This document shows, in pieces, positions 556-57,860 of a stretch of DNA of 64,000 bases (its first letter is position 1; each line of letters starts with the position of its first letter). Below the pieces are notes generated by a model. The model searched no databases and had not been told where the DNA came from. It saw only the letters and a list, made by a program, of their open reading frames with translations. The DNA comes from Bacteroidales bacterium. Lineage in GTDB: Bacteria; Bacteroidota; Bacteroidia; Bacteroidales; UBA932. A program made the position numbers and the translations under genes. The stretch is from contig JAFVWT010000004.1 in NCBI GenBank assembly GCA_017501525.1, positions 1-64,000 of the forward strand, written 5' to 3'.

Positions 556-759
556 TTTCTCTAAAAAAGAGAAATTATCTCTTATGCAAAGATATTATTA
601 TTTTCCTTATTTTAAACAAGTTACATGAACATTTTTCTAATATATTATTTACGATTTTAATCTTTAGGTTTACAATTTTCCTCAAAAAATCGTTACTGGT
701 AGGTTTATTCAATTAATTTCTAAGAATTTACGAATATGAATTTCTCTTTTTTAGAGATA
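556..759. promoter_or_regulatory. Predicted invertible promoter element 1
   Basis: A 19-bp perfect inverted repeat (558-576 and 739-757) encloses 162 bp. Each repeat is itself a two-arm site: TTTCTCT (556-562), spacer AAAAA (563-567), AGAGAAA (568-574). The right copy reads TTTCTCT (741-747), TTTTT (748-752), AGAGATA (753-759). This arm-spacer-arm layout is what tyrosine recombinases use. The enclosed DNA has a minus-strand promoter next to the left site, now pointing away from the lipoprotein gene at 1128. Inversion would turn it towards that gene, across a leader of about 370 nt. Phase variation is an inference; the repeats are directly visible. A nearly identical site pair occurs at 14102-14292. 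Confidence 0.75.
587..620 (-). promoter_or_regulatory. Bacteroides-type promoter inside invertible element 1
   Basis: The minus strand reads TATCTTTG at 594-587, a perfect TAnnTTTG -7 box. A CTTG/TTG element lies at 620-617, about 22 bp further upstream, close to the expected -33 position. Transcription would start near 580 and run leftwards through the inverted repeat towards the IS element. This orientation should leave the downstream lipoprotein gene silent. Confidence 0.55.
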
Positions 760-1127
760 TTCAAGTATTTGAGAAAAGCTATAAGATATGTTGAGGGGAA
801 AGGGGTTGAAAAACTGTGTGTTAAGTGTATCTTGTGGCTTTTGGGATTATTTTAGATTATAGTGTTTTTGTAAATAGAGAGTAAGCAGTAAATCAAGTCG
901 TTCTTTGGTGGTAGCTATGATTGATAAATAAATGATATAAGGTTATTTTGATCGCTTATGATGAAATTGTTACAATACTTTTCATAATTAATAGTGCTGC
1001 CACCTATGAACGATTTGTAAAAAGAACTTTGAGTTAGTGAATCTGTTTATCGGATTGTAAAGCTGTATGACATTATTTATTAAACATATTTAATTTAACC
1101 TTATTATTAATTTAAAATTAAGATTTT
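760..1127. other. Non-coding leader region before the beta-helix lipoprotein
   Basis: This is an AT-rich stretch of about 370 bp without a credible gene on either strand. It contains no perfect TAnnTTTG box on the plus strand; the closest is TATCTTG near 828. It may be the long 5' untranslated leader of the gene at 1128, transcribed when invertible element 1 is switched. No clear ribosome-binding site is seen; the ATG is preceded by an A/T-only stretch, as is usual in this phylum. Confidence 0.4.
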
Positions 1128-4052
1128 ATGAGAAAGTATTTTCTTTCATTCGTAGCATTGGCAGCAGGGCTGTTTGCTACTTCGTGTCAGGAAAGTATCG
1201 TTGAGCCTCAAGTGGCAGGCCCTACTACTTTCACTGTACAACTTCCCGAACAGATGGGAACTAAGGCTATCGGTGATGCCGAAAATGTAAACAAACTATT
1301 GGTAGAGGTATATCCTGCAGGTCAGGAAAACGCGATTTACCAAACTGTCAAAACAATTTCCCAAGGTAAAACAACCATTGAGTTGAGCCTTATTCAGGAT
1401 CAAGCCTATGATATCCTTTTCTGGGCACAGAAAAATGATGGATATGTAACTGTTACAGATGGTGAGTTCGGTTCGTTGAGAAATGTTCCTATGAACAATA
1501 AATTCTCTAACAATGACAATGGTGCAGCTTTCTTCCATGCTGAGAAAGGTTTTGTTCCCACAGGAGCTTCTAAAGAGGTGAAACTAAGACGTCCTTTTGC
1601 ACAATTGAATCTCGGAACAACAACAGAGAGTCTTAAGACAAATGCCGGAACTTTTGAATTGGTAAGTTCTCAAATCACTATTACTGGTGTTGCTACCTCA
1701 TTCGATGTTTTCTCAGGTGAAGGTTTTGGTAATGCAGATGTTAAATATGTGTATGAGAGTGCTAATGTTCCTAATGAAGACCTTACTATCGGAACTACTC
1801 CCAATACCACAACATACGACTATGTCTCAATGAACTATCTTTCAGTTCTTGGAAATGAGAAGGACCTTGTAACAGTTGATGCTACTATTGTTGTTAAGAA
1901 AGGTACTGAAGAACAAACCATTACCCATACATTCACTTCGGTTCCTGTTCAAGAGAACTACCGTACCAATATCGTAGGTAATCTTATCTCGTCAACCAAT
2001 GACTTCAATGTTATCATTGATGAAGGATGGGATGGTGAAGAATATAATTATATTGCTCCAGGTATCAAACTCGTTAATGGTGAATATCATATCGTTTCGG
2101 CTGAAGGTCTTTGGTCTATGGCTGAGTCTCTCAATGCATCAACAAAATCTACAGGTCATGACCTAAATGGTAAAACCATTAAACTTGCTGTCGATGTCGA
2201 TTTGCAAAATAAACCCTGGACCCCTATCAAGAGTTTCAAAAATAGTGGTGGAAAGGCTATTTTCGATGGTCAAGGCCATACTATTAAGAATTTGAATATT
2301 GAAAATTCATACAGAGGTGGTATTTTTGAATATGTAGTGGGTAGTATCAAGAATCTTAATCTTGATGGTGTAACTATTACAGCAACCCGTCAGGCAGGAG
2401 CGATTGTAGGACAGATTTATGGTAATATTACAGATTGCTCAGTCAATAACGTAAAAATTACTTTAACTCCTGAGTTCCTTAGTGAAGAAAATGTTTATGA
2501 CAATGGAGATAAGGTAGGAGCCCTTGCAGGTTTGGTAGGTGGAAAAGGTTATAGTTTTACAGGTAATAAAGCAACCAATGTAACCCTGTCAGCTTTCAGA
2601 GACCTAGGAGGTTTGATTGGAGCTGCTCATCCTTCCACTATTACAGGTAATACACTTGAAAACATTACACTCATTGTAAATAAGACCATATCATATACGG
2701 ATGAAAATGGTAATCCATATGAGGATAATGCTAATCAAGTGTTAGGTTCTCAAAGGGGAGGTGTCTCTACTGTTGAAGATAATACCGTAACCGGATATAA
2801 ATTGTTGTATATTGAAGCCTCAAATGATGAGACTTCTGAAGTTAAAGCTGCTGTAGAAGCTGCTCAAGAGGGTGAAACAGTGGTGATTCCTGATTCATAT
2901 CAAGGAACTCTTCCTATTCCTAATGAGAAAATAACTATTATCTGTGAGCCCGGAACTGTATTTGAGGGAACAAGTTCTTTGAATATAAAAGGTTCAACAT
3001 TAGTTGGTGCTACTTTTAAAAATGATAATGGTTCATCTGTAAGTGGAACTATTAATGGTGTATTTGAGGATTGTACATTTGATGGTTCTAATGGTCTAAG
3101 AAACTGCTATACAAGCGAGAATGTAATCTTTAGAAATTGCATTTTTGATGGCAATACTTACGGAGTCCATTTCGATGGTGGTGCTAATGAGATTACTTTT
3201 GAAGATTGTGAATTTAAAGGATGGAATTCATTTGCGAGAACAATTAAGAAAGTGACAATTAAGAACTCATCTTTTTATAAAAGTGGGTATGGACGATTGC
3301 GTTTTTATCAGGATGCTATTGTTGAAGGATGTACATTCTCAAATGATTTTCAAGGAATTGATTGTGGAAATGGTGGCGTTGAAAATCTTAAACTTACCAT
3401 TAAGTTTGATGGTTGTTCTGAAAACTTGTATGACCTTCTTGTAACAGGAACAGATAATAAATTTATCATAGATGGAACTCCATATTATTTCTTGGATGAG
3501 GATTCTAATTTTGATTTGAATGGTATTCAGGAGAATGGTCTTACTATAATCGGAGTTGGAGATGGTGTTAGAATCGCCAATACTACAAAATATGCATCTG
3601 GAAGTGCAACGGGTGCGATTTGGAAGGCAATTACTTTGGAAAACCTAACTCTAACTAACACAGTATATACTATGAGTGATGGAGGTAATTCAACTTTTAT
3701 CGATGTCACTTTTGAAAAAGGTGTTAGAGAGGCTTATGGTAAAGGTGTTAAGTTTACCCGTTGTATTTTTGGCTCAAGTGATGCTGGTTATGCTTTGCAT
3801 TTTCAAACAGATGGTTCAAGTGAGGGCGGTCTTATTGAATTAGCTGAGTGTGAATTTGGTGGTGGAAAAGTCCATCTTGGAGGTAAAAGAGCATATATCT
3901 TTTCAGGATGTTCATTCAAAGCCGGTACAGACTTCCAGGTGTGGTCTAACATAACACTTGAAAATTGCAATGTTGATGGTGTAGATGTAACATCTGAAAA
4001 TATCGAGACAATGTTCCCTAATTTGAATCTTGAGAAAGTAACTATCAAATAA
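1128..4052 (+). CDS. Large surface lipoprotein with DUF6562-like N-terminus and right-handed beta-helix C-terminus
   Basis: A 974-residue lipoprotein. An SPII signal peptide with lipobox FATSC places the lipidated Cys at residue 20. Residues of about 30-300 resemble the DUF6562/fimbrillin-like beta-sandwich of Bacteroidales (start TFTVQLPEQMGTKA, middle YDILFWAQ, FHAEKGF). From about residue 330 the chain turns into short repeated strands rich in Gly, Asn, Thr and Ile, such as IKNLNIENS, VTFED and FEDCTFDGSNG. This pattern is typical of a parallel beta-helix of the pectate-lyase/GLUG kind. The protein is probably exported to the cell surface, as an adhesin or glycan-binding stalk. It stands alone, behind an invertible promoter and ahead of a terminator. 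A polysaccharide lyase cannot be excluded, but no catalytic signature is evident. Confidence 0.75.
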   Translation: MRKYFLSFVALAAGLFATSCQESIVEPQVAGPTTFTVQLPEQMGTKAIGDAENVNKLLVEVYPAGQENAIYQTVKTISQGKTTIELSLIQDQAYDILFWAQKNDGYVTVTDGEFGSLRNVPMNNKFSNNDNGAAFFHAEKGFVPTGASKEVKLRRPFAQLNLGTTTESLKTNAGTFELVSSQITITGVATSFDVFSGEGFGNADVKYVYESANVPNEDLTIGTTPNTTTYDYVSMNYLSVLGNEKDLVTVDATIVVKKGTEEQTITHTFTSVPVQENYRTNIVGNLISSTNDFNVIIDEGWDGEEYNYIAPGIKLVNGEYHIVSAEGLWSMAESLNASTKSTGHDLNGKTIKLAVDVDLQNKPWTPIKSFKNSGGKAIFDGQGHTIKNLNIENSYRGGIFEYVVGSIKNLNLDGVTITATRQAGAIVGQIYGNITDCSVNNVKITLTPEFLSEENVYDNGDKVGALAGLVGGKGYSFTGNKATNVTLSAFRDLGGLIGAAHPSTITGNTLENITLIVNKTISYTDENGNPYEDNANQVLGSQRGGVSTVEDNTVTGYKLLYIEASNDETSEVKAAVEAAQEGETVVIPDSYQGTLPIPNEKITIICEPGTVFEGTSSLNIKGSTLVGATFKNDNGSSVSGTINGVFEDCTFDGSNGLRNCYTSENVIFRNCIFDGNTYGVHFDGGANEITFEDCEFKGWNSFARTIKKVTIKNSSFYKSGYGRLRFYQDAIVEGCTFSNDFQGIDCGNGGVENLKLTIKFDGCSENLYDLLVTGTDNKFIIDGTPYYFLDEDSNFDLNGIQENGLTIIGVGDGVRIANTTKYASGSATGAIWKAITLENLTLTNTVYTMSDGGNSTFIDVTFEKGVREAYGKGVKFTRCIFGSSDAGYALHFQTDGSSEGGLIELAECEFGGGKVHLGGKRAYIFSGCSFKAGTDFQVWSNITLENCNVDGVDVTSENIETMFPNLNLEKVTIK

Positions 4053-4081
4053 TTTTCAAAATTATTAAATATCAAATAATT

Positions 4082-4113
4082 AAGGTCGGCATATCAATTG
4101 TCGACCTTTTTTT
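4082..4113 (+). terminator. Rho-independent terminator of the beta-helix lipoprotein gene
   Basis: Seven-base stem AAGGTCG (4082-4088) pairs with CGACCTT (4102-4108), followed by a run of T to 4113. It begins 30 bp after the stop codon. Confidence 0.8.
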
Positions 4114-4364
4114 GCTCGTATGTTAGGTTGATTCTTGGTCAAGTTTGCCTTAGGCAGGGTGCATTACATTAATGAGACTAAATTAATAGATAATATCCAT
4201 TAATTGCAGTCGTTATACGTTATGTATATTTTGAGAAAGATTCTATTTGTAATGAGCAAATTTGGGTTGAACTATCTTTAGTCTCATAATATTGAGTAGT
4301 TCATTTTAATAGCATCTAAGGGATGCTTTGCTTGCGTCATACGGCATATATGGACTATAAAAAC
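4114..4364. other. Intergenic region without a recognisable gene
   Basis: About 250 bp of AT-rich DNA between the lipoprotein terminator and the tRNA terminator. Only weak structure is visible: a small hairpin AGCATC/GATGCT (4311-4327) and an 11-bp inverted repeat ATGAGACTAAA (4172-4182 and 4277-4287). Neither is backed by a promoter or gene. Confidence 0.5.
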
Positions 4365-4395
4365 AAAAGCACCCGTGAGTACCACAAGTGCTTTT
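4365..4395 (-). terminator. Terminator of the tRNA-Gln/tRNA-Met transcript
   Basis: Stem AAAAGCAC (4365-4372) pairs with GTGCTTTT (4388-4395). On the minus strand it follows the CCA end of the Met tRNA directly and is followed by a T-rich tract (TTTTGTTTTTAT). Confidence 0.75.
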
Positions 4396-4472
4396 TGGTA
4401 GCGAGACCCAGGATTGAACTGGGGACCTCATGATTATGAATCATGCGCTCTAACCAGCTGAGCTATCTCGCC
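4396..4472 (-). tRNA. tRNA-Met (CAT)
   Basis: A 77-nt cloverleaf on the minus strand. The acceptor 5' strand GGCGAGA (4472-4466) pairs with TCTCGCT, with a G-U pair at 1-72. The D arm is AGCTCAGCTGGTTAGAGC. The anticodon arm CATGA-TTCATAA-TCATG carries CAT, and the T arm GGTTCAA-type sequence is present as AGTTCAATCCTG. The 3' CCA is encoded. A lysidine-modified tRNA-Ile with the same anticodon cannot be ruled out from sequence alone, and the missing initiator features argue against tRNA-fMet. Confidence 0.9.
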
Positions 4473-4483
4473 ATATATGATTT

Positions 4484-4557
4484 TGGTTGAGCTACCAGGA
4501 GTCGAACCTAGATTTACAGAGCCAGAATCTGTCGTGCTGCCATTACACCATAGCTCA
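4484..4557 (-). tRNA. tRNA-Gln (CTG)
   Basis: A 74-nt cloverleaf on the minus strand with acceptor TGAGCTA/TAGCTCA, discriminator A and encoded CCA. The U1-A72 pair is characteristic of glutamine tRNAs. The anticodon loop TTCTGGC gives CTG. The T arm contains GGTTCGACTCC. It is 11 bp upstream of the Met tRNA and both are probably one transcript. Confidence 0.92.
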
Positions 4558-4614
4558 GTGAAATGGGACCGCAAAGATAGTGAAAATATGTTAAAAACAA
4601 ATTTTTTTTGAAAA

Positions 4615-5178
4615 TTATTCGCGAATTATTTTCACTTCGAAGTTCATACCGAGTTTTACAATTGACGAGGGTTTTCCTGTCGATTCGGTATCCATACTTT
4701 TGTCTACCTGGAAATTGATATTTTCCTTGAGTCTGGCCGATATTTCTTCATAAGTTTTAGGAGGATTCTCTCCTGAAATGTTTGCGGAGGTTGATACTAT
4801 GGGCTTTCCAAATTTTCTAATCATTTCTATGCAGAATTTTGATTTTGGAATTCGGATTGCAATGGAACCGTCTTCTGCCAGGGTGTTTTGCGCCAGATTT
4901 ATCCCCTCAGGATAGATGATTGTCATTGGTTTGTCGCTTACCTGATCAAGTGTTACAGCCATCTGAGGAATATCTTTGACAAAGCGGGCTACCATATCCA
5001 TGTCACTTGCTAGTATTATGAGACTTTTGGAATCACTTCTTCCTTTTATTTTAAATATTCTGTTAACGGCATCCTCATTTGTGGCATCACATCCTATACC
5101 CCAGATGGTATCAGTAGGGTATAATATAATTTCACCTTTGCGCAGGGCTGCTATTGCGTTTTCTATTTGTGTTTGCAT
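4615..5178 (-). CDS. tsaC: L-threonylcarbamoyladenylate synthase (Sua5/YrdC/TsaC family)
   Basis: A 187-residue protein of the YrdC fold. The family makes threonylcarbamoyl-AMP from threonine, bicarbonate and ATP for the t6A37 modification of ANN-decoding tRNAs in the cytoplasm. The ligand-binding core YPTDTIWGIG lies at residues 20-29 and KGR at 45-47, with the STSANISG motif near residue 125. The length fits the short TsaC form without the Sua5 C-terminal domain. The open frame extends to 5211, but that codon is TTG and would overlap the upstream gene; the ATG at 5178 is a better start. It is the last gene of a minus-strand operon headed by the gene at 9073. Confidence 0.9.
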   Translation of the reverse strand: MQTQIENAIAALRKGEIILYPTDTIWGIGCDATNEDAVNRIFKIKGRSDSKSLIILASDMDMVARFVKDIPQMAVTLDQVSDKPMTIIYPEGINLAQNTLAEDGSIAIRIPKSKFCIEMIRKFGKPIVSTSANISGENPPKTYEEISARLKENINFQVDKSMDTESTGKPSSIVKLGMNFEVKIIRE

Positions 5179-5188
5179 ATCGACATGT

Positions 5189-6271
5189 TTATTGAATTGT
5201 GAATTTGGCAAGGACAGGGTAGTGGTCTGAGAATTTTACCCTCCTTGTCTGGTGGTTGATAATATTATATGAATCTGGTGTGAGTATGTAGTCAATCCTT
5301 AGAAATGGCCATAGGGTTGTGTATGTTGCCGCAAATCCGTTTCCTGCCTCTTTAAATGTATCTTTTCTTCCTCTATAGAGTTCTCTGAATGAATATGACA
5401 TAGGAGTATCGTTGAAATCTCCGCAGATAATGGAATTGTATGGGCATTTGCGGATGTGTTCTATGACACTTTGAACCTGGTCGCTACGTTTGGAATTGGA
5501 TGTTTTTACCCGTTCGTGTACGTGTGCCATCTCTTGTGAGAATTCTTCATATGTCCCTGCAATTTTCTTAATCAGGGATGTCAGAGAAATGCTATTGGAT
5601 TCAAGATGAAGATTATACACTCTGGTGAGTTTATTGTCTATTTCAATGTCCACAAATGTTGCGAGGTTTGTGGTTTGCTCAAATGGTATCTTTCCCTGAA
5701 ACTTAATCGGGTATTTGCTCAATATTACATTCCCTACATAGTAGTTTCCTTTACTGAAGTGGAAAAATCTTTTCTGGGAGTAGGGGTAGTCAGGGAAATC
5801 CTTTCTGAGGGAATTTGTGTCTTTTGTCTTGAACTCCTGAAAAGTTATAATGTCCGGACTCGTCTCACTCACAAATGCTGAGATACTTTTAATGGTCTGG
5901 TCCGGAGAAATGGGTGATGACTGGAATCTGCCTACATTATATGTGAGCATTTTTATTTCTTTGCTTTCTGCAATAATCTCTTTGTTTGCAAATTGAAAGT
6001 AGAATTCTGCGAAAAATAGGGAGGGTAGAAGTGCCAGCAAAGGGATCCATCCCGCTTTGGAACGCCTTAGTACTGCAACTACAAGTAATGCAATATTGAT
6101 AAGGGCAATAGGTATGTAGTAGAGTCCGAAGAAACTTATAAGCGAAAAGTTTTGGGGATTGACGAATATTGAGAGGTAACTCAATATAAGCGCAACAGCA
6201 AATACTGTCAGAGTCAGTCTGAAAGAAATGCTGAAGAATGGCAATCTCCTTCTCTTTTTACTTTTTCCCAT
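5189..6271 (-). CDS. Membrane-anchored endonuclease/exonuclease/phosphatase-family protein
   Basis: A 360-residue protein. Three hydrophobic segments (about residues 16-36, 48-68 and 75-92) precede a domain of the EEP superfamily. The superfamily's metal-dependent core is visible: TYNVGRF near residue 110, ITFQEFK (metal-binding Glu), ICGDFND (catalytic Asp/Asn) and the C-terminal SDHYPV (catalytic His). Members cleave phosphodiesters or phosphomonoesters in nucleic acids, inositides or sphingolipids; the substrate here is unknown. The membrane anchor probably places the catalytic domain on the periplasmic side. The gene lies between the rhomboid protease and tsaC with short gaps and is probably co-transcribed. 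Confidence 0.8.
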   Translation of the reverse strand: MGKSKKRRRLPFFSISFRLTLTVFAVALILSYLSIFVNPQNFSLISFFGLYYIPIALINIALLVVAVLRRSKAGWIPLLALLPSLFFAEFYFQFANKEIIAESKEIKMLTYNVGRFQSSPISPDQTIKSISAFVSETSPDIITFQEFKTKDTNSLRKDFPDYPYSQKRFFHFSKGNYYVGNVILSKYPIKFQGKIPFEQTTNLATFVDIEIDNKLTRVYNLHLESNSISLTSLIKKIAGTYEEFSQEMAHVHERVKTSNSKRSDQVQSVIEHIRKCPYNSIICGDFNDTPMSYSFRELYRGRKDTFKEAGNGFAATYTTLWPFLRIDYILTPDSYNIINHQTRRVKFSDHYPVLAKFTIQ

Positions 6272-6278
6272 ATTTTAT

Positions 6279-6923
6279 TTAGTAATATAACCTGTTTTTC
6301 TTTTTCCAGTAGAGTATTAGGATTATTCCGAATATCATACCTCCCAAGTGGGCAAAGTGTGCAATATTTCCACCAGTGCCTGTGACTCCGAAAATGAATT
6401 CCATGACCCCGAAGATGAGTACCATCCATTTGGCTTTCATGGATATAGGAGGGAAGATGAATGATATGATGTTGTTCGGGAAGAGCATTCCGTATGCCAG
6501 TAACAGACCATAGATGGCTCCTGATGCACCAACGGTGGGGGTGTTGGCTATGATATATGCCTCATGCGGGATTGATGTCGTAATGATTTGAAGATACATC
6601 ACAAGTTCGTGAATGATTCCTGCCCCGATTCCTGTAACCATATAATAGAGGAAGAATTTCTTGGCTCCCCAGACATTTTCCAATACGCTACCAAACATGT
6701 AAAGAGAGAACATATTGAATAATAGATGGGAAAAGCCACCGTGCATGAACATATAACTGATGAATTGGAATGGATGGAACAATGGCGAACCAAAATAGTA
6801 TAGCGAGAATGTCTTATACATGAATGGCTCTGACACCATTGTAAATATCAACATAATGACATTTATGATGATGAGATTTTTCACCACCATCGGAACTCTT
6901 TGTCTATAACTGTAGTAATTCAT
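6279..6923 (-). CDS. Rhomboid-family intramembrane serine protease
   Basis: A 214-residue polytopic membrane protein of rhomboid type, which cuts transmembrane helices of substrate proteins within the inner membrane. The serine motif GASG is at residues 132-135 (Ser134) and the partner His is in AHLGG (His192). The conserved HLLFNMFSLYMFG helix carries Asn70, which belongs to the oxyanion hole. The length is typical of the compact six-helix bacterial form. Its ATG overlaps the mutL stop codon (TAATG), so the two are translationally linked. The substrate is unknown. Confidence 0.9.
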   Translation of the reverse strand: MNYYSYRQRVPMVVKNLIIINVIMLIFTMVSEPFMYKTFSLYYFGSPLFHPFQFISYMFMHGGFSHLLFNMFSLYMFGSVLENVWGAKKFFLYYMVTGIGAGIIHELVMYLQIITTSIPHEAYIIANTPTVGASGAIYGLLLAYGMLFPNNIISFIFPPISMKAKWMVLIFGVMEFIFGVTGTGGNIAHFAHLGGMIFGIILILYWKKKNRLYY

Positions 6924-8737
6924 TACAATCTTTTTTCTATTTCTTCATCTGTTATAATCTCCATAATTTTCTTTCCCGATGGAGATAATTCGGGCTCTGC
7001 ACAACAGAATAGGGAATCTACCAAAACTCGTGCCTGATTGCGTGACAGCCTTTTATCGCCACTGCGGGCAGTTGATTTTGCTAAGGAACGTGCCATGTTG
7101 TCGCGTCCGTGAGCCTTTGTTAGGAAGTCGCTCTGACATTCTTCAAATGTGACGATAAGGTTATCGATAATTTCTATTATACTTTTTTCGTCTGTTTCCA
7201 AACCTTCGGGCATTCCGTTTACAGATATGGTGTTCTCTCCTACGGTTGAAATGTCAAACCCCAGGGAATGTAATCTCTCGGGGGACTCCATCAAAAGGGA
7301 GTAGCGGGCAGGGGACAGTTCAATGGTTTGTGGGAAAAGAACCTGTTGGGCAATGGGTTGGGAATTGTCCAGATTGTAAAGATATTTTTCGTAGAAAATT
7401 CTCTCCTTGGCTCTGAATATATTGATGAGCATCATCCCCGAACGCACTGCGGTTACAATGTATTTATTGGAAAGTACAAGCGTGTTTTCATCGATGGTCT
7501 CCTTAGACTCAAAAATCTCTCCGTAACCATCTACGGCTGAGGCAATATTATATTTACTATCAAATTCACTATCACTCCGGTTTTTTTGTTCTGCTTCAAA
7601 ATTGAACTCAAAGTTGTCTGATTTGGCAGATTGAAATGGTTTTGGAATTGAATAAGCCGGAGATGACTTGAGTGTCGGTAGAATAGGGGTGTAATCTTTC
7701 GGAATATGAATCTCAGGAAGAGTGTCATGGTTGAAATCGATAGTGGGTACAAATGAATTCTTTCCAAGGGACTCTTTGACTAATGCTGTGAGAATTTCAA
7801 ACATCTCACTCTCATTCTCGAATTTTACTTCTGTCTTGGCAGGGTGGATGTTTACGTCGACATTTTCCGGGTTCGTTTCAAAAAATAGATAGTAAGATGG
7901 ATATGTTCCGTCAGGAATCAATTTGTCGTATCCTTTCATTATTGCCTTATGAAAGTATGGAGATTTGAAAAATCTTCCGTTTACGAAAAAATATTGATTT
8001 CCTGAACTCTTTCTGGCATCTTCCGGATGACCGATAAATCCTGAAACAGTTACGATGGATGAGCTGATGCCTATATCTACCAACTCTTTAATCATTTCCC
8101 TCCCTTCTATCTCTAGGATTCGTTGTTTTATATTATTTACCCTTTTGAGGTTGTATATGTCTTTACGATTGTGAACAAGTCTAAGATTAAGATCGTAGCG
8201 GCATAATGCAACTCGTACGAATTCTGTAATTATGTGTCTGAATTCGGCATTGTCCGATTTGAGAAATTTTCTCCTTGCCGGAATCTTGTAAAAGAGGTTA
8301 CGCACAGAAATATTGGTCCCTTCGGGTGTTGCCACTTCTTCTTTTGATATCAATTCCGAGCCAGCTAATGTTACTTCATATCCTGTATCATCTCCTCTCT
8401 TGCGACTTCTCAAAACAACCTCAGCAACGGCGGCAATGGAGGGAAGCGCTTCTCCTCGGAATCCATAAGTGTGGATAGAATTCAGATCTTCTGCATTGGA
8501 AATTTTTGATGTGGCATGTCTTTCAAAGCATAGCACTGCCTCATCGGGGGTCATTCCGCATCCATTGTCTATTACCTGGATTGAGGTTCTCCCGGCGTCT
8601 TCAATAATCACTGAGATTGTATCTGCTCCTGCATCTACACTATTTTCAATAAGCTCCTTAACAACAGAGGAGGGGCGTTGAACCACCTCTCCTGCTGCAA
8701 TAAGATTTGATATACCTGCGGGTAATACTTTAAGCAT
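6923..8737 (-). CDS. mutL: DNA mismatch repair protein MutL
   Basis: A 604-residue MutL that couples mismatch recognition by MutS to downstream excision. The N-terminal GHKL ATPase shows ELIENSVDAGAD (Glu28, Asn32), DNGCGM, HATSKI and TYGFRGEAL. A variable linker runs from about residue 335 to 415, before the C-terminal dimerisation domain. In that domain the usual DQHA-type metal-binding segment reads INIFRAKERI (around residue 430). The Asp and His are replaced, so latent endonuclease activity is doubtful. It is second in the operon behind a small membrane protein and is followed by the rhomboid gene with a 1-base overlap. Confidence 0.95.
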   Translation of the reverse strand: MLKVLPAGISNLIAAGEVVQRPSSVVKELIENSVDAGADTISVIIEDAGRTSIQVIDNGCGMTPDEAVLCFERHATSKISNAEDLNSIHTYGFRGEALPSIAAVAEVVLRSRKRGDDTGYEVTLAGSELISKEEVATPEGTNISVRNLFYKIPARRKFLKSDNAEFRHIITEFVRVALCRYDLNLRLVHNRKDIYNLKRVNNIKQRILEIEGREMIKELVDIGISSSIVTVSGFIGHPEDARKSSGNQYFFVNGRFFKSPYFHKAIMKGYDKLIPDGTYPSYYLFFETNPENVDVNIHPAKTEVKFENESEMFEILTALVKESLGKNSFVPTIDFNHDTLPEIHIPKDYTPILPTLKSSPAYSIPKPFQSAKSDNFEFNFEAEQKNRSDSEFDSKYNIASAVDGYGEIFESKETIDENTLVLSNKYIVTAVRSGMMLINIFRAKERIFYEKYLYNLDNSQPIAQQVLFPQTIELSPARYSLLMESPERLHSLGFDISTVGENTISVNGMPEGLETDEKSIIEIIDNLIVTFEECQSDFLTKAHGRDNMARSLAKSTARSGDKRLSRNQARVLVDSLFCCAEPELSPSGKKIMEIITDEEIEKRL

Positions 8738-8743
8738 GCTCCT

Positions 8744-9073
8744 TTATTTGAAAATTTCAAGGAATCTATGAAAATATTCTGCAAAATATACCAGGAAGAT
8801 GAAAAATATGGCCATAGATGCCAGACCTATTATCTTTCTGATATTTCCACCGAGGGCATGCTTTCTGTTTTTTATAGCCTCCTCTTGCCATGCTCCGCTG
8901 ATATATTTGCCGGGTTTGTAGTCTGGATCGTGCCATTGGCGCCCTTCACGAATGGCTTTTTCGCGCAATGCTTCCTGCTTCACCTTTTCCCGGTGCTCTT
9001 TTCTTTCGTCATAATATACAGGAGTATAGTTGAATACTCTGTGCTTTGGAGTTTTGAAAAAACTTATACCCAT
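8744..9073 (-). CDS. Small conserved-looking protein with one C-terminal membrane segment
   Basis: A 109-residue protein of unknown function. The first 75 residues are basic and charged (YYDERKEHREKVKQEALREK), with an amphipathic helical look. A single hydrophobic segment, IIGLASMAIFFIFLVYFA, follows at about residues 80-100, so it is probably a tail-anchored inner-membrane protein. It precedes mutL by 6 bp and has a perfect -7 box 20 bp upstream, which makes it the first gene of the operon. I do not recognise a named family, although proteins of this shape next to mutL are plausible for Bacteroidales. Confidence 0.7.
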   Translation of the reverse strand: MGISFFKTPKHRVFNYTPVYYDERKEHREKVKQEALREKAIREGRQWHDPDYKPGKYISGAWQEEAIKNRKHALGGNIRKIIGLASMAIFFIFLVYFAEYFHRFLEIFK

Positions 9074-9093
9074 AATTCCAATTCTTTATTTGG

Positions 9094-9101
9094 CAAATAT
9101 A
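9094..9101 (-). promoter_or_regulatory. -7 promoter box of the mutL operon
   Basis: The minus strand reads TATATTTG, a perfect TAnnTTTG box, 20 bp upstream of the ATG at 9073. No well-spaced TTTG -33 element was found. Confidence 0.5.
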
Positions 9102-9135
9102 ATCATTCTTGTCAAATTAAAACAGCTCAGTGGAC

Positions 9136-11736
9136 CTATTTCCCAAAAGCTCTCCTTATTAACTTTATAATTTCACAAACTATGAATATGCCTGCAGAGA
9201 GGGAGATTATCCAAATCCATTGTGTCATATTTAGGGAAACGACTTGGAACAGTGAAGCTACAGATGGAATTAACAATACCATGAGCATTAATCCAGCGAC
9301 CAATAACATCGCACCCAAAAGATATTTGTTTGAGAAAAGGTTTCTCAGTCCAAAATCTTTTCCACTTCTAATGCTGAAAATAATGGTCATCTGGCTAAAG
9401 GCAAGAGTTGCAAAGGTCATTGTTCTGGCGCACTCGACAGATGTCTTCATCCCTATGTAGTATGCAGTAAGTGAAACGATTGCGATTAGAATACCTTGGA
9501 GCAATACCCTGAATGTAAACTCTTTGGTAAATATTCCCTGGTTTGGTACAACCGGTTTTCTGCTCATAACATCTCTCTCTGCAGGGTCGAAACTCAATGC
9601 CAATGCCGGGAGTGAGTCTGTCACAAGGTTGATCCACAAAATATGAATCGGGAGGAGTGGTGTTACCAGATTTGCTAAAACTGCAATAAAAAGGACCAGT
9701 ACCTCACCGATATTTGTTGAGAGGAGAAATTGGATTGCCTTGAGGAGATTGTCATAGATTCTTCTCCCTTCTGATACAGCTGTGACAATTGTAGCAAAGT
9801 TGTCATCGGCCAAAACTACATCTGCTGCCTCTTTTGAAACGTCTGTGCCTGTAATGCCCATTGCAACACCTATGTCGGCGAGTTTTAGGGCGGGGGCATC
9901 GTTGACTCCGTCCCCTGTCATTGCTACAACATTTCCTTTGTTCTGGAAAGTTTGTACGATTCTTACTTTGTGCTCAGGGGCAACCCTTGCAAAAACTGAT
10001 GTATGATTTGCTACTTTAAGGAGCTCATCATCACTCATATTTGCCACTTCTGCACCCGTTAAAGCGATATCTCCATCCCTTTTTATTTTAAGTGATTCTG
10101 CAATAGCTTCTGCTGTAATCTTATGGTCTCCTGTGATCATAACCGGTCTGATCCCCGCTTGAACGGCTTGCTCGACGGCGAGTTTTACCTCTTCACGAGG
10201 AGGGTCGATCATCCCAAACAGACCACAGAATATAAGCTGGTTCTCAATGGTCTCCGACGAAATTACTTCAGGCAGTGTGTCGACCTCTTTGTAAGCTGTA
10301 GCAAGTACTCTTAGAGCTTTGGAGGCCATATCCATATTCTTATTCTCTATCTCTATAGCTACATCGCTGATCAGTGGATAGACCTCCCCGTTGCCAAAAT
10401 ATCTGTCACATCTTTGGAGTATTTCGTCTACACCCCCTTTTGTTGCAATAAAATAGCGATTTCCAACCTTGTGGATGGTTGTCATTAATTTTCTTTCGGA
10501 GTCAAAGGGTATTTCGGCAACTCTCGGATATTCCCTCTCCAATATCTCTTTGTCTAACCCTTTCTTAAGTCCAAAATCGACAATAGATGTCTCTGTAGGG
10601 TCGCCAATGGTTTTGACTCTCTCCCCCTCACGTGATATTTTGGTGTCATTTGATAATATACCTATTCTGATGGAGAGTTCTTCGTTGTCGCTGTCGCTCT
10701 CCACTATAGTCATTTTATTTTGAGTCAATGTCCCTGTTTTGTCGGAGCAAATCACAGTTGTGCTTCCAAGGGTCTCTACCGAGGGGAGATTTCTTACAAT
10801 GGCATTCCTTTTTGCCAAACGTTGGACCCCTATGGCAAGAACAATGGTCGATACGGCTGGTAACCCTTCCGGGATGGCTGCAGCGGCTAGACTTACTGCT
10901 GTCATAAACATAGTAAGTAGGTCGTTTCCATAGAGGATACCTACTATAAATATCAGAGCGCAGATAGCGAGGGCAGCGATGGCCAATGTTTTGCCAAGCT
11001 GGTCGAGCCGGTGCTGCATAGGGGTTTTAGTCTCAGGTACAGACTGAATCATCGATGCGATTTTTCCTATCTCGGTATTTTGTCCTATCGCAGTTACTAT
11101 CCCTTTGCCGTGACCGTATGTAACGTGACAAGAAGAATAGGCCATATTGAGACGGTCGCCCAAAGGGACATCTCCTTGAATCGGATTGCAGTCTTTCTCC
11201 ACAGGAAGTGATTCGCCGGTCAGGGCTGCCTCTTCGATCTTCAGGTTGGACTCATCTATTATCCTTAGGTCTGCAGGGATATTGTCCCCTGTCTCAAATA
11301 TTACAATATCCCCTCTAACAAGATATTTACTTTCAATAATTTGGGTCTTTCCATCCCTTATTACCTTGCACTTTGGCGCGGACATTCTTTCCAAAGCGTC
11401 CAGAGATTTCTCGGCTTTTGCCTCTTGTAGCATTCCGATGATGGCATTTAAAAATACAATCGTCAAGATAATGATGGCGTCGGTAAATCCTTCCCCATGA
11501 AGATATCCTATTATTCCCGATACGAGTGCCGCAACGAGTAGGACAATAATCATAAAGCTCTTGAATTGGCTGATGAATTTGACATAAAGGGAAGTGCGCT
11601 TTACCTTTTTAAATTCGTTAAGTCCTTGTTCATGAATTCTTTGTTGGGCCTGTTGTGATGACAGACCCTTAATCGGATCAGACTCGAGGTCTGAGCAAAC
11701 CTCTTCAGAGGTGAGTTGGTGATAATTTGTATTCAT
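9136..11736 (-). CDS. Cation-translocating P-type ATPase (calcium-type, P2)
   Basis: An 866-residue ion pump of the P2 (SERCA/PMCA-like) family in the inner membrane, which probably exports Ca2+. An N-terminal cation-ATPase domain (about residues 1-70) is followed by the actuator domain with TGES at 173-176. The M4 ion-site motif PEGLP is at 289-293, the phosphorylation motif DKTGT has Asp332, and the hinge TGDGVNDAPALK lies near residue 600. The M6 segment NLVTDSLPALAL carries the Asn and Asp expected of calcium pumps rather than Na/K or H pumps. The length is normal for bacterial members. It stands alone, divergent from the nucleoside transporter gene. Ion specificity is inferred from motifs only. 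Confidence 0.9.
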   Translation of the reverse strand: MNTNYHQLTSEEVCSDLESDPIKGLSSQQAQQRIHEQGLNEFKKVKRTSLYVKFISQFKSFMIIVLLVAALVSGIIGYLHGEGFTDAIIILTIVFLNAIIGMLQEAKAEKSLDALERMSAPKCKVIRDGKTQIIESKYLVRGDIVIFETGDNIPADLRIIDESNLKIEEAALTGESLPVEKDCNPIQGDVPLGDRLNMAYSSCHVTYGHGKGIVTAIGQNTEIGKIASMIQSVPETKTPMQHRLDQLGKTLAIAALAICALIFIVGILYGNDLLTMFMTAVSLAAAAIPEGLPAVSTIVLAIGVQRLAKRNAIVRNLPSVETLGSTTVICSDKTGTLTQNKMTIVESDSDNEELSIRIGILSNDTKISREGERVKTIGDPTETSIVDFGLKKGLDKEILEREYPRVAEIPFDSERKLMTTIHKVGNRYFIATKGGVDEILQRCDRYFGNGEVYPLISDVAIEIENKNMDMASKALRVLATAYKEVDTLPEVISSETIENQLIFCGLFGMIDPPREEVKLAVEQAVQAGIRPVMITGDHKITAEAIAESLKIKRDGDIALTGAEVANMSDDELLKVANHTSVFARVAPEHKVRIVQTFQNKGNVVAMTGDGVNDAPALKLADIGVAMGITGTDVSKEAADVVLADDNFATIVTAVSEGRRIYDNLLKAIQFLLSTNIGEVLVLFIAVLANLVTPLLPIHILWINLVTDSLPALALSFDPAERDVMSRKPVVPNQGIFTKEFTFRVLLQGILIAIVSLTAYYIGMKTSVECARTMTFATLAFSQMTIIFSIRSGKDFGLRNLFSNKYLLGAMLLVAGLMLMVLLIPSVASLFQVVSLNMTQWIWIISLSAGIFIVCEIIKLIRRAFGK

Positions 11737-11784
11737 ATTGTTTGAGAATCTAAGAACTACCTTCTTGACGCAATAAATATGCCA

Positions 11785-11814
11785 TTGTAAAATTGTGAAT
11801 TAAGGGTATATTTG
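11785..11814 (+). promoter_or_regulatory. Promoter of the nucleoside transporter gene
   Basis: The -33 element TTG lies at 11785-11787, followed by a 19-bp spacer and a perfect -7 box TATATTTG at 11807-11814. The ATG follows 20 bp later at 11835. This is one of the best matches to the Bacteroides consensus in the window. Confidence 0.7.
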
Positions 11815-11834
11815 TGCCATAAATGTAATCTATT

Positions 11835-13133
11835 ATGGGAAATAAGTTGAAATTGATTTTAATGAACTTCCTCCAATTTGCAGTTTGGGGGGCGTATTTG
11901 ACCAGTCAAGGAAGATATCTCGGTTCTGTTGGATTTGGAGATAAGATAGGTCTTTTCTACTCTGTTCAAGGGATTGTTTCCATTTTTATGCCGGCAATTA
12001 TGGGAATTATTGCCGATAAATGGATTCAGGCTCAAAGACTTTTGGGGCTATGTCATGCAGTGGCAGGAGGAGCTATGATTGCTGCAGGTCTATATGGCGT
12101 ATGGGCAGGAGCAAATGTTGAGTTTGTCACATTGTTTTCGTTGTATACATTGAGCGTTGCATTTTTTATGCCTACAATCGCAATTTCCAATTCAGTAGCT
12201 TACAATGTTCTGGAAAAATCAGGACTTGATCCGGTAAAAGATTTTCCACCAATCAGAATATGGGGTACAGTCGGATTTATTGTCTCAATGTGGTTTGTGG
12301 ATTTTGTAAAAATGGATGGTATCGCTTTCCAACTCTCTTCTATGCAATATGTTGTCTCAGGGGTTCTGGGTATTCTGTTAGGAATATATAGCTTTACTCT
12401 TCCTGAGTGTCCTGTAGTCAAAAGTGATGCGAAGAAATCTGTTGTAGAGGCAATGGGACTTAAAGCTTTCACATTGTTCAAGGATAAAAATATGGCGATA
12501 TTTTTCATCTTCTCCATGCTTCTCGGGGTAGCGTTGCAGATTACAAATGGTTTTGCCAATCCTTTTCTTGGGGATTTTGGAAATTTAGCTGAGTATGAGA
12601 CTTCTTTTGGTGTGAAACATTCAAACGTCCTAATATCTCTCTCTCAGGTGTCGGAAACATTGTGTATCCTCCTTATCCCTTTCTTCCTAAGACGCTTCGG
12701 TATTAAAAAAGTGATGCTCATAGCTATGTTTGCTTGGGTATTCCGTTTTGGATTCTTTGCTGTAGGTAATCCGGGAGGTGGAATATGGCTATTTGTTCTT
12801 TCTATGATAATATATGGTGTGGCATTTGACTTTTTCAATATATCAGGTTCGTTGTTTGTCAATGAAAACACCGATAAATCGATACGTTCGAGTGCGCAGG
12901 GACTCTTTATGTTGATGACCAATGGTATCGGTGCAGCTGTAGGAACATTGGGCGCACAATGGGTGGTCAATCTCCTCGTCAATTCCAAGAAAGTACCCTC
13001 TTCCGATGGCACGATAGATTGGACTGCGGTAATGAATGGTTGGTGTGATGCCTGGTATATTTTTGCGGCATACGCATTGGTTGTAGCTATTATGTTTGCT
13101 ATTTTATTCAAGTACAAACATAAGAAAGCCTAA
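11835..13133 (+). CDS. MFS nucleoside:H+ symporter (NupG/XapB-like)
   Basis: A 432-residue inner-membrane transporter with about 12 hydrophobic segments. The N-terminus (LILMNFLQFAVWGAYLTSQG) and FMPAIMGIIADKW are hallmarks of the nucleoside:proton symporter family, which imports ribo- and deoxyribonucleosides. The later AFDFFNISGSLFVNENTD and SSAQGLFMLMTNGIGA segments also fit. The gene is monocistronic with its own strong promoter; a palindromic repeat lies beyond the 3' end. The exact substrate cannot be read from the sequence. Confidence 0.88.
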   Translation: MGNKLKLILMNFLQFAVWGAYLTSQGRYLGSVGFGDKIGLFYSVQGIVSIFMPAIMGIIADKWIQAQRLLGLCHAVAGGAMIAAGLYGVWAGANVEFVTLFSLYTLSVAFFMPTIAISNSVAYNVLEKSGLDPVKDFPPIRIWGTVGFIVSMWFVDFVKMDGIAFQLSSMQYVVSGVLGILLGIYSFTLPECPVVKSDAKKSVVEAMGLKAFTLFKDKNMAIFFIFSMLLGVALQITNGFANPFLGDFGNLAEYETSFGVKHSNVLISLSQVSETLCILLIPFFLRRFGIKKVMLIAMFAWVFRFGFFAVGNPGGGIWLFVLSMIIYGVAFDFFNISGSLFVNENTDKSIRSSAQGLFMLMTNGIGAAVGTLGAQWVVNLLVNSKKVPSSDGTIDWTAVMNGWCDAWYIFAAYALVVAIMFAILFKYKHKKA

Positions 13134-13190
13134 GCTGTCATTATAAGGCCAACTTCCATAAATTCAATATTTCAGAAGTTGGAATACTAT

Positions 13191-13237
13191 AAGGGATGTT
13201 CTATAAATCACAGCAAAGTCTTTTATGGAACATCTCT
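13191..13237. repeat. Dispersed palindromic repeat R1, copy 1
   Basis: The 15-bp arm GGGATGTTCTATAAA pairs with TTTATGGAACATCTC across a 13-nt centre containing GCAAAGTC. The same palindrome recurs at 19180-19196 (half), 23054-23107, 23281-23329 and 42411-42451, always outside or at the very edge of genes. A separate short stem AACTTC/GAAGTT lies at 13151-13180. Confidence 0.7.
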
Positions 13238-13404
13238 TCTCTTATTAATTTGAATAGAAATATGTAGCTTAAGGCTTGCAAATCCCGAAAAAGCGTAGTT
13301 TACTGAGTGTAAATGAGCCTTTAGAGGGTGAGTGTAACGACAAAAAAGACCTTCTATTCACCCTCTGATTGTTTGAATGTATCGTATAGGATGACAATGA
13401 GATT

Positions 13405-13902
13405 CTATACCTCAATCATTTCCCATTCTCCTCCCCACAGTTCTATAAATTTTCGGAAGTCGTTGTTTGAAATTACCAATGATGCCGTATTGTCATTAGG
13501 GTGGAAACTTAAATTCTCAGATTGGAAAAGGTCCTTGTCTATAAATAATTTTACTTTTTTGTCGGGGTCATTGACAAGACCGAACAGAGACACTGAACCG
13601 GGAGTTGTTCCGAGATGTTTCTCCATTCTCTGCTCAGATGCAAAAGAGAGCTTTCCTTGATGAAGCATCTTTTCAAGCTGGTGGATGGGAAGTGTTTTAT
13701 GACATTCAAAAATTACCAGATAATGTTTGTTTCCTTTATGATTTCTGAAGAATAAGTTCTTGCAATGGGTTGAATCAATATTTTTCCAGTACTCCAGTGC
13801 TGACTCGATGGTGGGCAATGGAGGATGTTCATATATGCGGTATCTTATTCCCCATTGATCCAATTTTTCAAATACTTTGTTTCTCCTTTCTGTCTTTTCC
13901 AT
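13405..13902 (-). CDS. proX: YbaK/ProX-type aminoacyl-tRNA deacylase (prolyl-tRNA editing protein)
   Basis: A 165-residue single-domain protein of the INS-like editing superfamily, which hydrolyses mischarged tRNA such as Ala-tRNAPro in trans. Visible features are the N-terminal YRIYEHPPLPTIESALEYW, then CKNLFFRNHKGNKHYLVIF with the conserved Lys, and the GTTPGSVSLFGL loop that forms the pocket. The ATG at 13902 is the preferred start: the upstream extension to 13920 begins with TTG and would contain the -7 box at 13907-13914. The gene is divergent from the fimbria operon's switch region and probably monocistronic. Confidence 0.88.
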   Translation of the reverse strand: MEKTERRNKVFEKLDQWGIRYRIYEHPPLPTIESALEYWKNIDSTHCKNLFFRNHKGNKHYLVIFECHKTLPIHQLEKMLHQGKLSFASEQRMEKHLGTTPGSVSLFGLVNDPDKKVKLFIDKDLFQSENLSFHPNDNTASLVISNNDFRKFIELWGGEWEMIEV

Positions 13903-13906
13903 TTGA

Positions 13907-13914
13907 CAAAGATA
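13907..13914 (-). promoter_or_regulatory. -7 box directly upstream of proX
   Basis: The minus strand reads TATCTTTG, a perfect match, ending only 4 bp before the start codon at 13902. The transcript would be leaderless or nearly so. Confidence 0.45.
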
Positions 13915-14101
13915 GGTCAAATCTTTTAAAATCTATAATTTGTATCGTATTGAGATGGCTCTCCTGGTCTTTACTAAATTTCTCTTATTGATATATCTGA
14001 TTTTTCTGTCCTTTCAGAGATAATTGCTGTATGAACTCCTATGTTGAAATAAATTTTGTTGATTTAAAAGAAGTTTTTATATTTGTGATTAGTATTGTGG
14101 T

Positions 14102-14292
14102 TTTCTCTTAAGAAGAGAGTACGATAGTCCAATTCATCATAATTATTCCTTCTGGGAATGTGTCCATACCACGATTCCAAGCTGATATTTTTAATTTACT
14201 TACGGCTGTAGAATAGAGGAGTGTGAATACTGAACACAATAAATAGTTGAGTAATAATTTGTTTGCAAATGAATTTCTCTTCTTAAGAGAAA
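14102..14292. promoter_or_regulatory. Predicted invertible promoter element 2 (fimbria switch)
   Basis: A 17-bp perfect inverted repeat (14102-14118 and 14276-14292) encloses 157 bp. The left site is TTTCTCT (14102-14108), spacer TAAGA (14109-14113), AGAGAGT (14114-14120). The right site is TTTCTCT (14274-14280), TCTTA (14281-14285), AGAGAAA (14286-14292). The arms are the same as in element 1 at 556-759, while the spacer differs. The right end is 41 bp upstream of the first fimbria gene. A promoter-like sequence next to the right site points towards the genes, so this copy is read as ON. Invertible promoters are well established for surface loci in Bacteroides; inversion here is inferred, not shown. 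Confidence 0.78.
14252..14265 (+). promoter_or_regulatory. Candidate promoter within invertible element 2
   Basis: TAATAATTTGTTTG is an imperfect TAnnTTTG box placed 8 bp inside the right recombination site. The corresponding position of element 1 carries the perfect box TATCTTTG, also followed by CA. No good -33 element is visible, so an activator may be needed. If used, transcription would start near 14272, giving a leader of about 60 nt. Confidence 0.35.
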
Positions 14293-14333: not shown

Positions 14334-15647
14334 ATGAAGAAACTTTTCTTGGTATTGGTTGCTGCATTATATGCATACATAGCTGCTGCTCAGGACTCTG
14401 TTTCTGATTCTGTAGAAGTTCAGACAAGCGAGACTGTCGCAATCTATTTCCGACAGGGACATTATAATCTCGATTTGAGTTATCGTACAAATAAGGAATC
14501 TCTTGAGTCAATATATGCTCAGATGGCGGAGATCTATTATGATTCCACACGTTTTTTCAGGCATGTTCAGATTATATCCGGAACATCTCCTGAGGGTTCC
14601 TATTCCTTTAACCAGAGGTTGTCGAAGAATCGTCTGAATGCACTTAAGAACTATATACAGTCAAGATTGCCTATACCAGATTCGATTTTTGTGCAGGAGT
14701 CAAGAGGTATCAACTGGATAGATTTGATTGCGTTGGTAGAGGAGTCCGATATGCCGAATAAGGAAGATATGCTGCATATTTTACGGAATGTTCCTGAAAT
14801 AGAGGAGGTTGACGGCAGAGTGACATATCCTCGTAAAAAGGCGATGGAACAATTGGATGGAGGTAGACCGTATAGGTATATGTATAACCATTTTTTCCCT
14901 GTACTGAGGCAGTCTTGTGGTATTTTGTTTGCGGAAAAACCCATTCCGATCGAGCCTGTAGAAATACCTGATATATATGCTTTGACGGGGCTTGAGGTCG
15001 TGGTAGTATCTGAATATCCAAAGCCGGTCAAGTTTGTCAAACCCGATCCGGACCGTATAAAGTCACCATATCCTGAGCCTGATACAATCAGAGGCCCTAT
15101 CTTTGCTCTGAAGACAAATCTCCTTTCAGATCTTGCCCTTATTCCTCATATCGGAGCAGAAGTGTTTATTGCTGATGGGTGGACTCTTGCTGCCAACTGG
15201 TATTATGCTTGGTGGAAATCAGATCCTGTCCATTGGTATTGGAGAACTTATGGAGGTGATATGGCTGTAAGATGGTATTTTGGGGAGAAGAGTAAATGGA
15301 GAGTATTCAATGGTCATCACCTTGGACTTTTCGGGCAAATCTCTACCTACGATTTTGAATTGGGTGGCAATGGTATATTAGGTGACAAATGGAGTTGGGG
15401 AGTTGGTGTTGAATATGGTTATGCTATCCCTATTGCAAGACATTTGAATCTTGATTTTACCCTTGGTGTGGGGTATTTCGGCGGGGAATTTTACAAATAT
15501 GTTCCGATGGATACCCACTATGTATGGCAATCTACCAATAATCGACACTATTTCGGACCGACAAAACTTGAAGTTTCTCTTGTATGGGTTATCGGTGGAG
15601 GAAGTTACAATAAAAACAAAGAGGAGGTGAGTGATGAAAGCAAATAG
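14334..15647 (+). CDS. DUF3575 outer-membrane-associated protein of a fimbria operon
   Basis: A 437-residue exported protein, first in a four-gene operon. The signal peptide MKKLFLVLVAALYAYIAAAQ is cleaved near residue 20. Residues of about 30-120 form an OmpA-like or DUF3868-like region (VAIYFRQGHYNLD, IISGTSPEG, LSKNRLNALKNYI). Residues of about 240-430 match DUF3575, an outer-membrane beta-barrel-like domain (FALKTNLLSDLALIPHIGAE, WYYAWWKSDPVHWYW, MAVRWYFG). Such genes accompany DUF5119 and fimbrillin genes in Bacteroidales type V pilus clusters. The start at 14334 is chosen because the frame upstream begins with TTG inside the invertible segment. It overlaps the next gene by 14 bp. Confidence 0.85.
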   Translation: MKKLFLVLVAALYAYIAAAQDSVSDSVEVQTSETVAIYFRQGHYNLDLSYRTNKESLESIYAQMAEIYYDSTRFFRHVQIISGTSPEGSYSFNQRLSKNRLNALKNYIQSRLPIPDSIFVQESRGINWIDLIALVEESDMPNKEDMLHILRNVPEIEEVDGRVTYPRKKAMEQLDGGRPYRYMYNHFFPVLRQSCGILFAEKPIPIEPVEIPDIYALTGLEVVVVSEYPKPVKFVKPDPDRIKSPYPEPDTIRGPIFALKTNLLSDLALIPHIGAEVFIADGWTLAANWYYAWWKSDPVHWYWRTYGGDMAVRWYFGEKSKWRVFNGHHLGLFGQISTYDFELGGNGILGDKWSWGVGVEYGYAIPIARHLNLDFTLGVGYFGGEFYKYVPMDTHYVWQSTNNRHYFGPTKLEVSLVWVIGGGSYNKNKEEVSDESK

Positions 15648-57169: not shown

Positions 57170-57522
57170 AGCGAGTGAAAAGCAAAGCACCAGCATTGAT
57201 TTTTGCAACGAGCGCATAGAAGCGCAGGAGCGCAGCGACTAAAGCCCCTTCAAAGGGGGCCCGGGTTGTAAAAAAGAAGGAAGCGGCCAAGCCGCAATCC
57301 TTCGAAAATCCCAACACAACCACCCTCAGTCTCAACCACCACATCCAGGGTAAAACCACACTCTACCACTAACCAGATACCCAAAGGAACATTGATCGTC
57401 ATAGGTTTGGTTTTTATGATTAAGAGATTCCTTAGGCCCACGGGATCCCTTAGGTCCTCGAGATCCCCGAGATCCCCGATCAGGTCGGGGATGACTTCGT
57501 CAGGTCGGGGATGACATCGTCA
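57170..57522 (+). repeat. Intergenic repeat unit, copy 1
   Basis: A unit of about 350 bp: AGGAGCGCAGCGACTAAAG, a C/G-rich hairpin around CCCCTTCAAAGGGGGC, GAAGGAAGCGGCC, ACCAGATACCCAAAGGAACA, then short repeats of GGTCGGGGATGAC. Copy 2 repeats the same order of blocks directly behind it, and a fragment is found at 494-530. On the minus strand both units hold an open frame with NVPLGIWLV, but no initiation signal or protein family supports a gene. Confidence 0.75.
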
Positions 57523-57540: not shown

Positions 57541-57860
57541 AGACAAACCCAAAAGCAAAACACAAGAGCGTAGGAGCGCAGCGACTAATGCCCCCTTAAA
57601 AAGGGGGTATGGGGGTTGTAAAAGAGAAGGAAGCGGCAATATAGCCGCGACCCTTCGAAAAGCCAAACACCACCACCCTCCATTCCAACCACTGCCTCCA
57701 AGGTAGAACCACCCCCCTCCCACCAACCAGATACCCAAAGGAACATTAACCTCCTTTGCCTTGATTTTTATGTTCCCGAGGTCCCCGAGATCCCCGATCA
57801 AGTCGGGGATGACTTCGTTAGGTCGGGGATGACTTCGTCAGGTCTGTGGATGACTTCTTT
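57541..57860 (+). repeat. Intergenic repeat unit, copy 2
   Basis: AGGAGCGCAGCGACTAATGC, hairpin CCCCCTTAAAAAGGGGG, GAAGGAAGCGGCAATATAG, ACCAGATACCCAAAGGAACA, and GGTCGGGGATGAC units. It differs from copy 1 by substitutions and small indels. Confidence 0.75.

Follow-up and report, generated by a model that had tools for sequence, protein, structure and literature searches.

Two short DNA segments in the first 64,000 nucleotides of contig 1 of a Bacteroidales draft genome (JAFVWT010000004.1, assembly GCA_017501525.1; this 64-kb stretch is hereafter called the window) are bounded by inverted copies of one site, TTTCTCT-N5-AGAGAAA, and belong to a genome-wide set of eight such site pairs. In this gut-type bacterium, one unlinked enzyme probably switches at least eight surface-protein promoters. 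The best explanation of the whole, held with good confidence, is a set of phase switches with matched spacers, served by a single trans-acting tyrosine recombinase encoded at C16:84510-85430 (contig:position). A short promoter-bearing segment flanked by two inverted sites (core TCTCT-N5-AGAGA) would flip and thereby switch expression of the surface gene or fimbrial operon downstream, and the one recombinase would act in trans on all eight complete loci. Strand exchange would take place within the 5-bp centre (perhaps 5 to 7 bp), which would have to match between the two sites of a switch, and mismatched spacers may block exchange between loci.

The paired architecture of the sites lies far above chance. 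The genome-wide search for more pairs, proposed in the earlier note on this DNA, was positive: a spacer-agnostic pattern (CTCT-N5-AGAG-N150..180-CTCT-N5-AGAG) occurred at eight places on six contigs, including the two in the window (C1:559, C1:14105, C4:7308, C5:109234, C14:265, C15:1150, C15:50934 and C16:99966), and the reversed control pattern at none across all 19 genomes searched. A ninth, lone site was located at C18:75; the contig ends 75 bp away, and any partner past that point would escape detection. The genome (1.53 Mb in 19 contigs, 82.8% complete) therefore harbors multiple unlinked inverted site pairs of common design, as a master invertase would use; its loci have two sites each, fewer than the three or more around moving coding cassettes that characterize a shufflon. 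In an even sample of 249 genomes of the family, own genome included, 10 carried a pair (eight pairs in the own genome, two in one other and one in each of eight others) and one gave a match to the reversed control; only pairs 150-180 bp apart were counted, so that three pairs of genome G018, for example, were missed. Eight same-genus genomes other than the own one had a pair match, with spacers matching in five and differing in three.

Within the window, the search with up to two mismatches returned exactly four sites, at 556-574, 741-759, 14102-14120 and 14274-14292 (0, 1, 2 and 0 mismatches, respectively). Shuffled windows held 0.76 sites on average and at least four in 2 of 100 shuffles, so single sites alone were only modestly beyond chance. 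In element 1, site 1L (TTTCTCT-AAAAA-AGAGAAA, plus strand, 556..574) faces its inverted copy 1R (741..759, with AAAAA on the minus strand) at a start-to-start distance of 185 bp, enclosing a putatively invertible segment of 166 bp (575..740). In element 2, site 2L (TTTCTCT-TAAGA-AGAGAGT, plus strand, 14102..14120) and its inverted copy 2R (minus strand, 14274..14292, arms intact) start 172 bp apart and enclose a putatively invertible 153 bp (14121..14273). The partner site carries the reverse complement of the spacer in each element, and each single site is itself near-palindromic. The earlier note had reported these four sites with their AAAAA and TAAGA spacers, no further complete site and no recombinase gene in the window, and the present searches agreed with it; all five tyrosine recombinase matches (PF00589) of the genome lie outside the window.

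Promoter-like boxes occupied a fixed place in the segments, which ranged from 153 to 168 bp across the eight switches. A Bacteroides-type -7 box, TANNTTTG, was found 38-40 bp from one segment end in seven of the eight, pointing toward the gene at C14 and C15b (one of the two contig 15 switches) and away from it at element 1, C4, C5, C15a (the other contig 15 switch) and C16. Another open frame on the far side at C16 makes the ON/OFF assignment less sure there. The box of element 1 (TATCTTTG, 587..594, minus strand) points away from the gene at 1128, presumably the OFF orientation. The C14 and C15a segments were 83% identical when one was flipped and 40% unflipped; they appear to be paralogous switches in opposite orientations, the nearest thing in these data to seeing inversion.

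Surface proteins were the common targets of the switches. Seven of the eight pairs precede DUF6562-like genes, including element 1, whose target encodes 974 aa (1128..4052, plus strand) with weak DUF6562 and beta-helix matches and a lipoprotein-like N-terminus. Element 2 precedes a fimbrial operon on the plus strand, with profile matches to DUF3575 (14334..15647), DUF5119 (15631..16683) and two Mfa_like_1 fimbrillins (16713..17807 and 17887..18957). The genome has 11 DUF6562 matches with E values of 0.1 or less (eight above the curated cut-off). Seven of them are preceded by a switch pair, and three of those seven score below the cut-off; of the remaining four genes, three had no site in the flank searched (up to one mismatch) and one had a lone site. 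At G000:C1:222000-224309 (L030, L176), a DUF6562 gene is accompanied by a single unpaired TCTCT-N5-AGAGG site, with a -7 box directed at the gene; this locus, divergent from a XerC-like gene, is perhaps a switch with a lost partner site.

The best candidate for the switching enzyme is a 307-aa tyrosine recombinase (C16:84510-85430), unlinked to the window and one of five PF00589 matches in the genome (C1:224749, C1:244020, C7:37784, C16:15739 and C16:84951). It matched Phage_integrase (PF00589, 3.6e-10) and the SAM-like N-terminal domain Phage_int_SAM_5 (PF13102, 3.3e-18), and K182, R255, H278 and Y287 were invariant in a five-row alignment of the recombinase family (A1). In the alignment to 4a8e, Tyr replaces the first His of HxxR and Ser the usual first Arg, the catalytic roles of these residues being putative. 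A similar Ser is present in IntDOT. Serine recombinases (PF00239), to which an Mpi-type invertase would belong, gave no match in the 82.8% complete genome. XerC and XerD were rejected as switch enzymes after profile comparison (C16:15739 scored above the XerD cut-off, and C1:224309 was XerC-like but below the cut-off); a lone site lies near the XerC-like gene, with no partner seen. Among the matches listed, the sites at C7:41436 and C7:47353, close to the C7 integrase, were considered as a distant pair and also rejected, since their spacers differ. The phylogenetic tree grouped the candidate with the enzyme of locus L156 (97/93), a grouping not relied on because L156 was flagged as a long branch and bootstrap support had yet to converge.

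Relatives of the candidate adjoin the same site, which makes it a plausible form of the unlinked, trans-acting tyrosine recombinase proposed in the earlier note. The loci compared were the best 80 of 486 confirmed relatives (50-59% identical, nearly all labelled Bacteroidales or kin). With identical spacers required, an inverted TCTCT-N5-AGAGA pair was found within 700 bp downstream of the recombinase gene in 51 of the 80 loci, none within 700 bp upstream and none in the other 613,356 bp of these loci. A motif-free inverted-repeat search recovered the same core in 45 of the 80, always downstream. The seven-bp arms claimed at first are present in the own sites, and the relatives refine them to 5-bp arms, with a few inner-side bases partly common within pairs.

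Linkage of the enzyme to a single fimbrial switch is likely ancestral. At L138, a relative of the candidate adjoins a DUF3575-DUF5119-Mfa_like_1 operon (DUF3575 38% and DUF5119 24% identical to those of element 2), the recombinase gene lying upstream of the operon between two inverted sites 1175 bp apart (positions 1-1193); in genome G013, a relative adjoins a DUF3575 gene with two DUF6562 genes behind it. These arrangements suggest that a recombinase formerly tied to one switch became unlinked in the present genome. In G018, the one detected relative is on C77 and three site pairs are on other contigs. Near the recombinase of L156 (Prevotella), three same-spacer sites (304, 2090 and 3841) surround a pair of genes, one or both of them Mfa-like, an arrangement that looks like an adhesin shufflon. 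A more distant same-genus branch (L053, L064, L065 and L066; 38-39% identity) displayed arms GCCGTCTCT or GTTTCT, and AGAGACGG, near genes that are polysaccharide-export- and antiterminator-like from reading of their open frames.

Spacers were identical within pairs and variable between loci. All eight own pairs had identical spacers, with 0 of 40 spacer positions and 14 of 112 arm positions differing, and complete matching arose in 34 of 20,000 shuffled pairings. Among the 80 relative loci, pairs chosen by their arms only, for which arm conservation is by construction, had identical spacers in 44 of 45 cases, and the sole exception (L164) also has another pair with matching spacers. Removal of near-duplicates left 43 unique pairs with 23 kinds of spacer. 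For the first four centre bases, 39-71% of the comparisons between loci showed a difference, against 5% for the fifth; within pairs, each centre base differed in 0-2% and the outer flanks in 51-81%. Such identity within pairs combined with variability between loci would place strand exchange in the spacer, and spacer homology within one switch is well supported.

The function of spacers as unique locus addresses is only partly supported. In the own genome, AAAAA was found at five loci (C1:556, C5, C14, C15:1147 and the lone C18 site), AAATA at C4 and in reversed form (TATTT) at C15:50931, AAGTA at C16 and TAAGA at C1:14102, so that 7 of the 28 possible pairings of complete loci share a spacer. 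The AAAAA loci are one group of paralogues that share a dispersed repeat on their upstream side (41 matches genome-wide), and their spacers thus seem to have been inherited with duplication. The proposal of the earlier note that spacers keep loci apart falls short where spacers are shared, and identity within pairs is no proof of insulation between loci that differ. The position of AAAAA loci at contig ends was considered as a sign of exchange between loci, and the dispersed repeat explains it equally well. At C14, the upstream flank resembles that of C5 and the segment that of C15a; this mosaic hints at exchange, but no claim was drawn from it, the upstream part being dispersed repeat.

Spacer differences might also be neutral, with homology required within each pair and matched pairs drifting, being copied on duplication and undergoing no selection for insulation, a possibility that is compatible with the trans-acting phase switches and is somewhat favored. 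The AAAAA spacer common to a paralogous group, the locus pairs sharing a spacer and the wide variation between genomes fit such a history. However, drift is also compatible with insulation, and loci with different spacers would stay apart anyway (four classes here, and two in G018 under its one detected enzyme relative); G013 has three spacers, but several recombinase relatives. It is a tentative and rather doubtful idea that the 5-bp spacers form a natural address code, in which one trans-acting recombinase flips eight or more switches, differing spacers separate unlinked groups and same-spacer paralogues may exchange segments. If true, engineered orthogonal lox sites would have a parallel in nature, arisen when a recombinase that usually belongs to a single switch turned into a genome-wide regulator.

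Two further alternatives concern the enzyme and the sites themselves. The switches could be real and flipped by another recombinase, missing from the incomplete draft or among the other four tyrosine recombinases of the assembly. This is unlikely, since the other four are of XerD type (C16:15739), XerC-like (C1:224309) or 410-411-aa integrases (C7 and C1:244020) 29% and 25% identical to the candidate, and since it is the C16:84510 type that adjoins this site in relatives, linkage having been compared for that type only. The near-palindromic form of each site could also suit protein-binding palindromes or terminator-like repeats that are not recombination sites at all. The narrow spacing of the inverted pairs, the spacer identity within them, the -7 box at one end in seven of eight, the paralogues in opposite orientation and the recombinase adjoining in many relatives make this very improbable.

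Several observations weigh against phase switches served in trans by the C16 enzyme. Inversion in this strain is deduced from one assembly, no site pair lies beside the candidate gene in the own genome, and another recombinase may be missing from a draft that is 82.8% complete. A -33-like motif accompanies only three of the seven strict -7 boxes (element 1, C5 and C15b), and element 2 lacks a strict box, with only a degenerate -7-like ATAATTTG (14254..14261, plus strand) at the corresponding place, possibly facing the operon. Pairs with non-matching spacers in G005, G014 and G016 look like chance matches. Among the relatives, 29 of 80 had no pair within 700 bp (in eight of them the available sequence ends less than 700 bp downstream, and the sites of L138 and L156 are spaced more widely), and same-genus recombinase loci, with short flanks, had a pair in 7 of 30, the seven being from six genomes (G002, G003, G007, G012, G013 and G017). 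The N5 centre is not universal either: beside the recombinases of L171 (near 3860-4000) and L093 (7575 and 7716; G015), two fully palindromic sites have a 6-base centre, TCCGGA, of which G013 carries a 5-base length variant, TCCGG.

Pairs elsewhere in the genome were found for some of the pairless enzymes. In the genomes of six of the 29 pairless loci, inverted same-spacer pairs less than 500 bp apart were located elsewhere in G252 and G253, and wider-spaced ones in G249 and G250. G252, to which locus L111 belongs, has a switch-like pair at C14:197170/197346 with the spacer AAGTA, as at the own C16; the L111 recombinase itself is followed by no pair over 5 kb. Overall, promoter-bearing inverted pairs, further pairs and a candidate trans-acting enzyme were recovered as first proposed, and locus-specific spacers only in part.

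Upstream of element 1, the window contains the 3' part of a transposase gene (42-490; rve domains, IS3-like by reading) ending directly before a truncated copy of the dispersed intergenic repeat (495-555). Further copies of this repeat, mostly about 150 bp long, lie at 57226-57375 and 57571-57729, and the repeat adjoins the AAAAA switches.

The flipping of many loci by one invertase is already known from Mpi, Tsr0667, Tsr19 and RecV, Tsr0667 being, as its name indicates, a tyrosine recombinase. What is unusual here is that a kind of enzyme often found beside a single switch apparently serves eight unlinked ones with four spacer classes. These classes, some of them shared within one small genome, offer a natural case for how one recombinase serves many loci without chromosome rearrangement. 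Moreover, since a large Bacteroidales recombinase family is tied to a readable TCTCT-N5-AGAGA, such switches can be searched for from sequence alone. In the literature searched, which included few subscription papers, no account of naturally occurring spacer classes served by a single invertase was found.

In the sections of the cited reports considered here, Bacteroides fragilis has three master invertases, Mpi, Tsr0667 and Tsr19 (PMC4747536). Tsr19 (BF2766) and Tsr0667 invert several promoters or regions, some distant, that control surface molecules through TAnnTTTG promoters (PMC4747536). The present system resembles them, by description and not by site sequence, in that one tyrosine recombinase would serve several surface-molecule promoters including distant ones; Tsr19 adjoins one of its own targets, unlike the candidate here, and those sections describe no site family with several spacer classes. 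Mpi, which inverts 13 regions including seven polysaccharide promoters (PMC4747536, PMC5903667), is likewise one master invertase for many loci, but is a serine recombinase, a type for which no PF00239 match was found here. RecV of Clostridioides difficile is one tyrosine recombinase for several switches (PMC5903667); its inverted repeats are described as mostly unrelated and other recombinases may take part, whereas the repeats here share one core. Engineered orthogonal lox sites have identical arms and recombine depending on spacer identity (PMC10850332); their spacers are designed palindromes tested for cross-reaction, while those here are natural 5-bp spacers, some of them shared, with putative insulation. 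In gut Bacteroidota, groups of inverted repeats (invertons) are statistically tied to nearby integrase families (PMC11892184) and, likened without motif comparison, the present sites agree with these groups in the association of repeat and enzyme.

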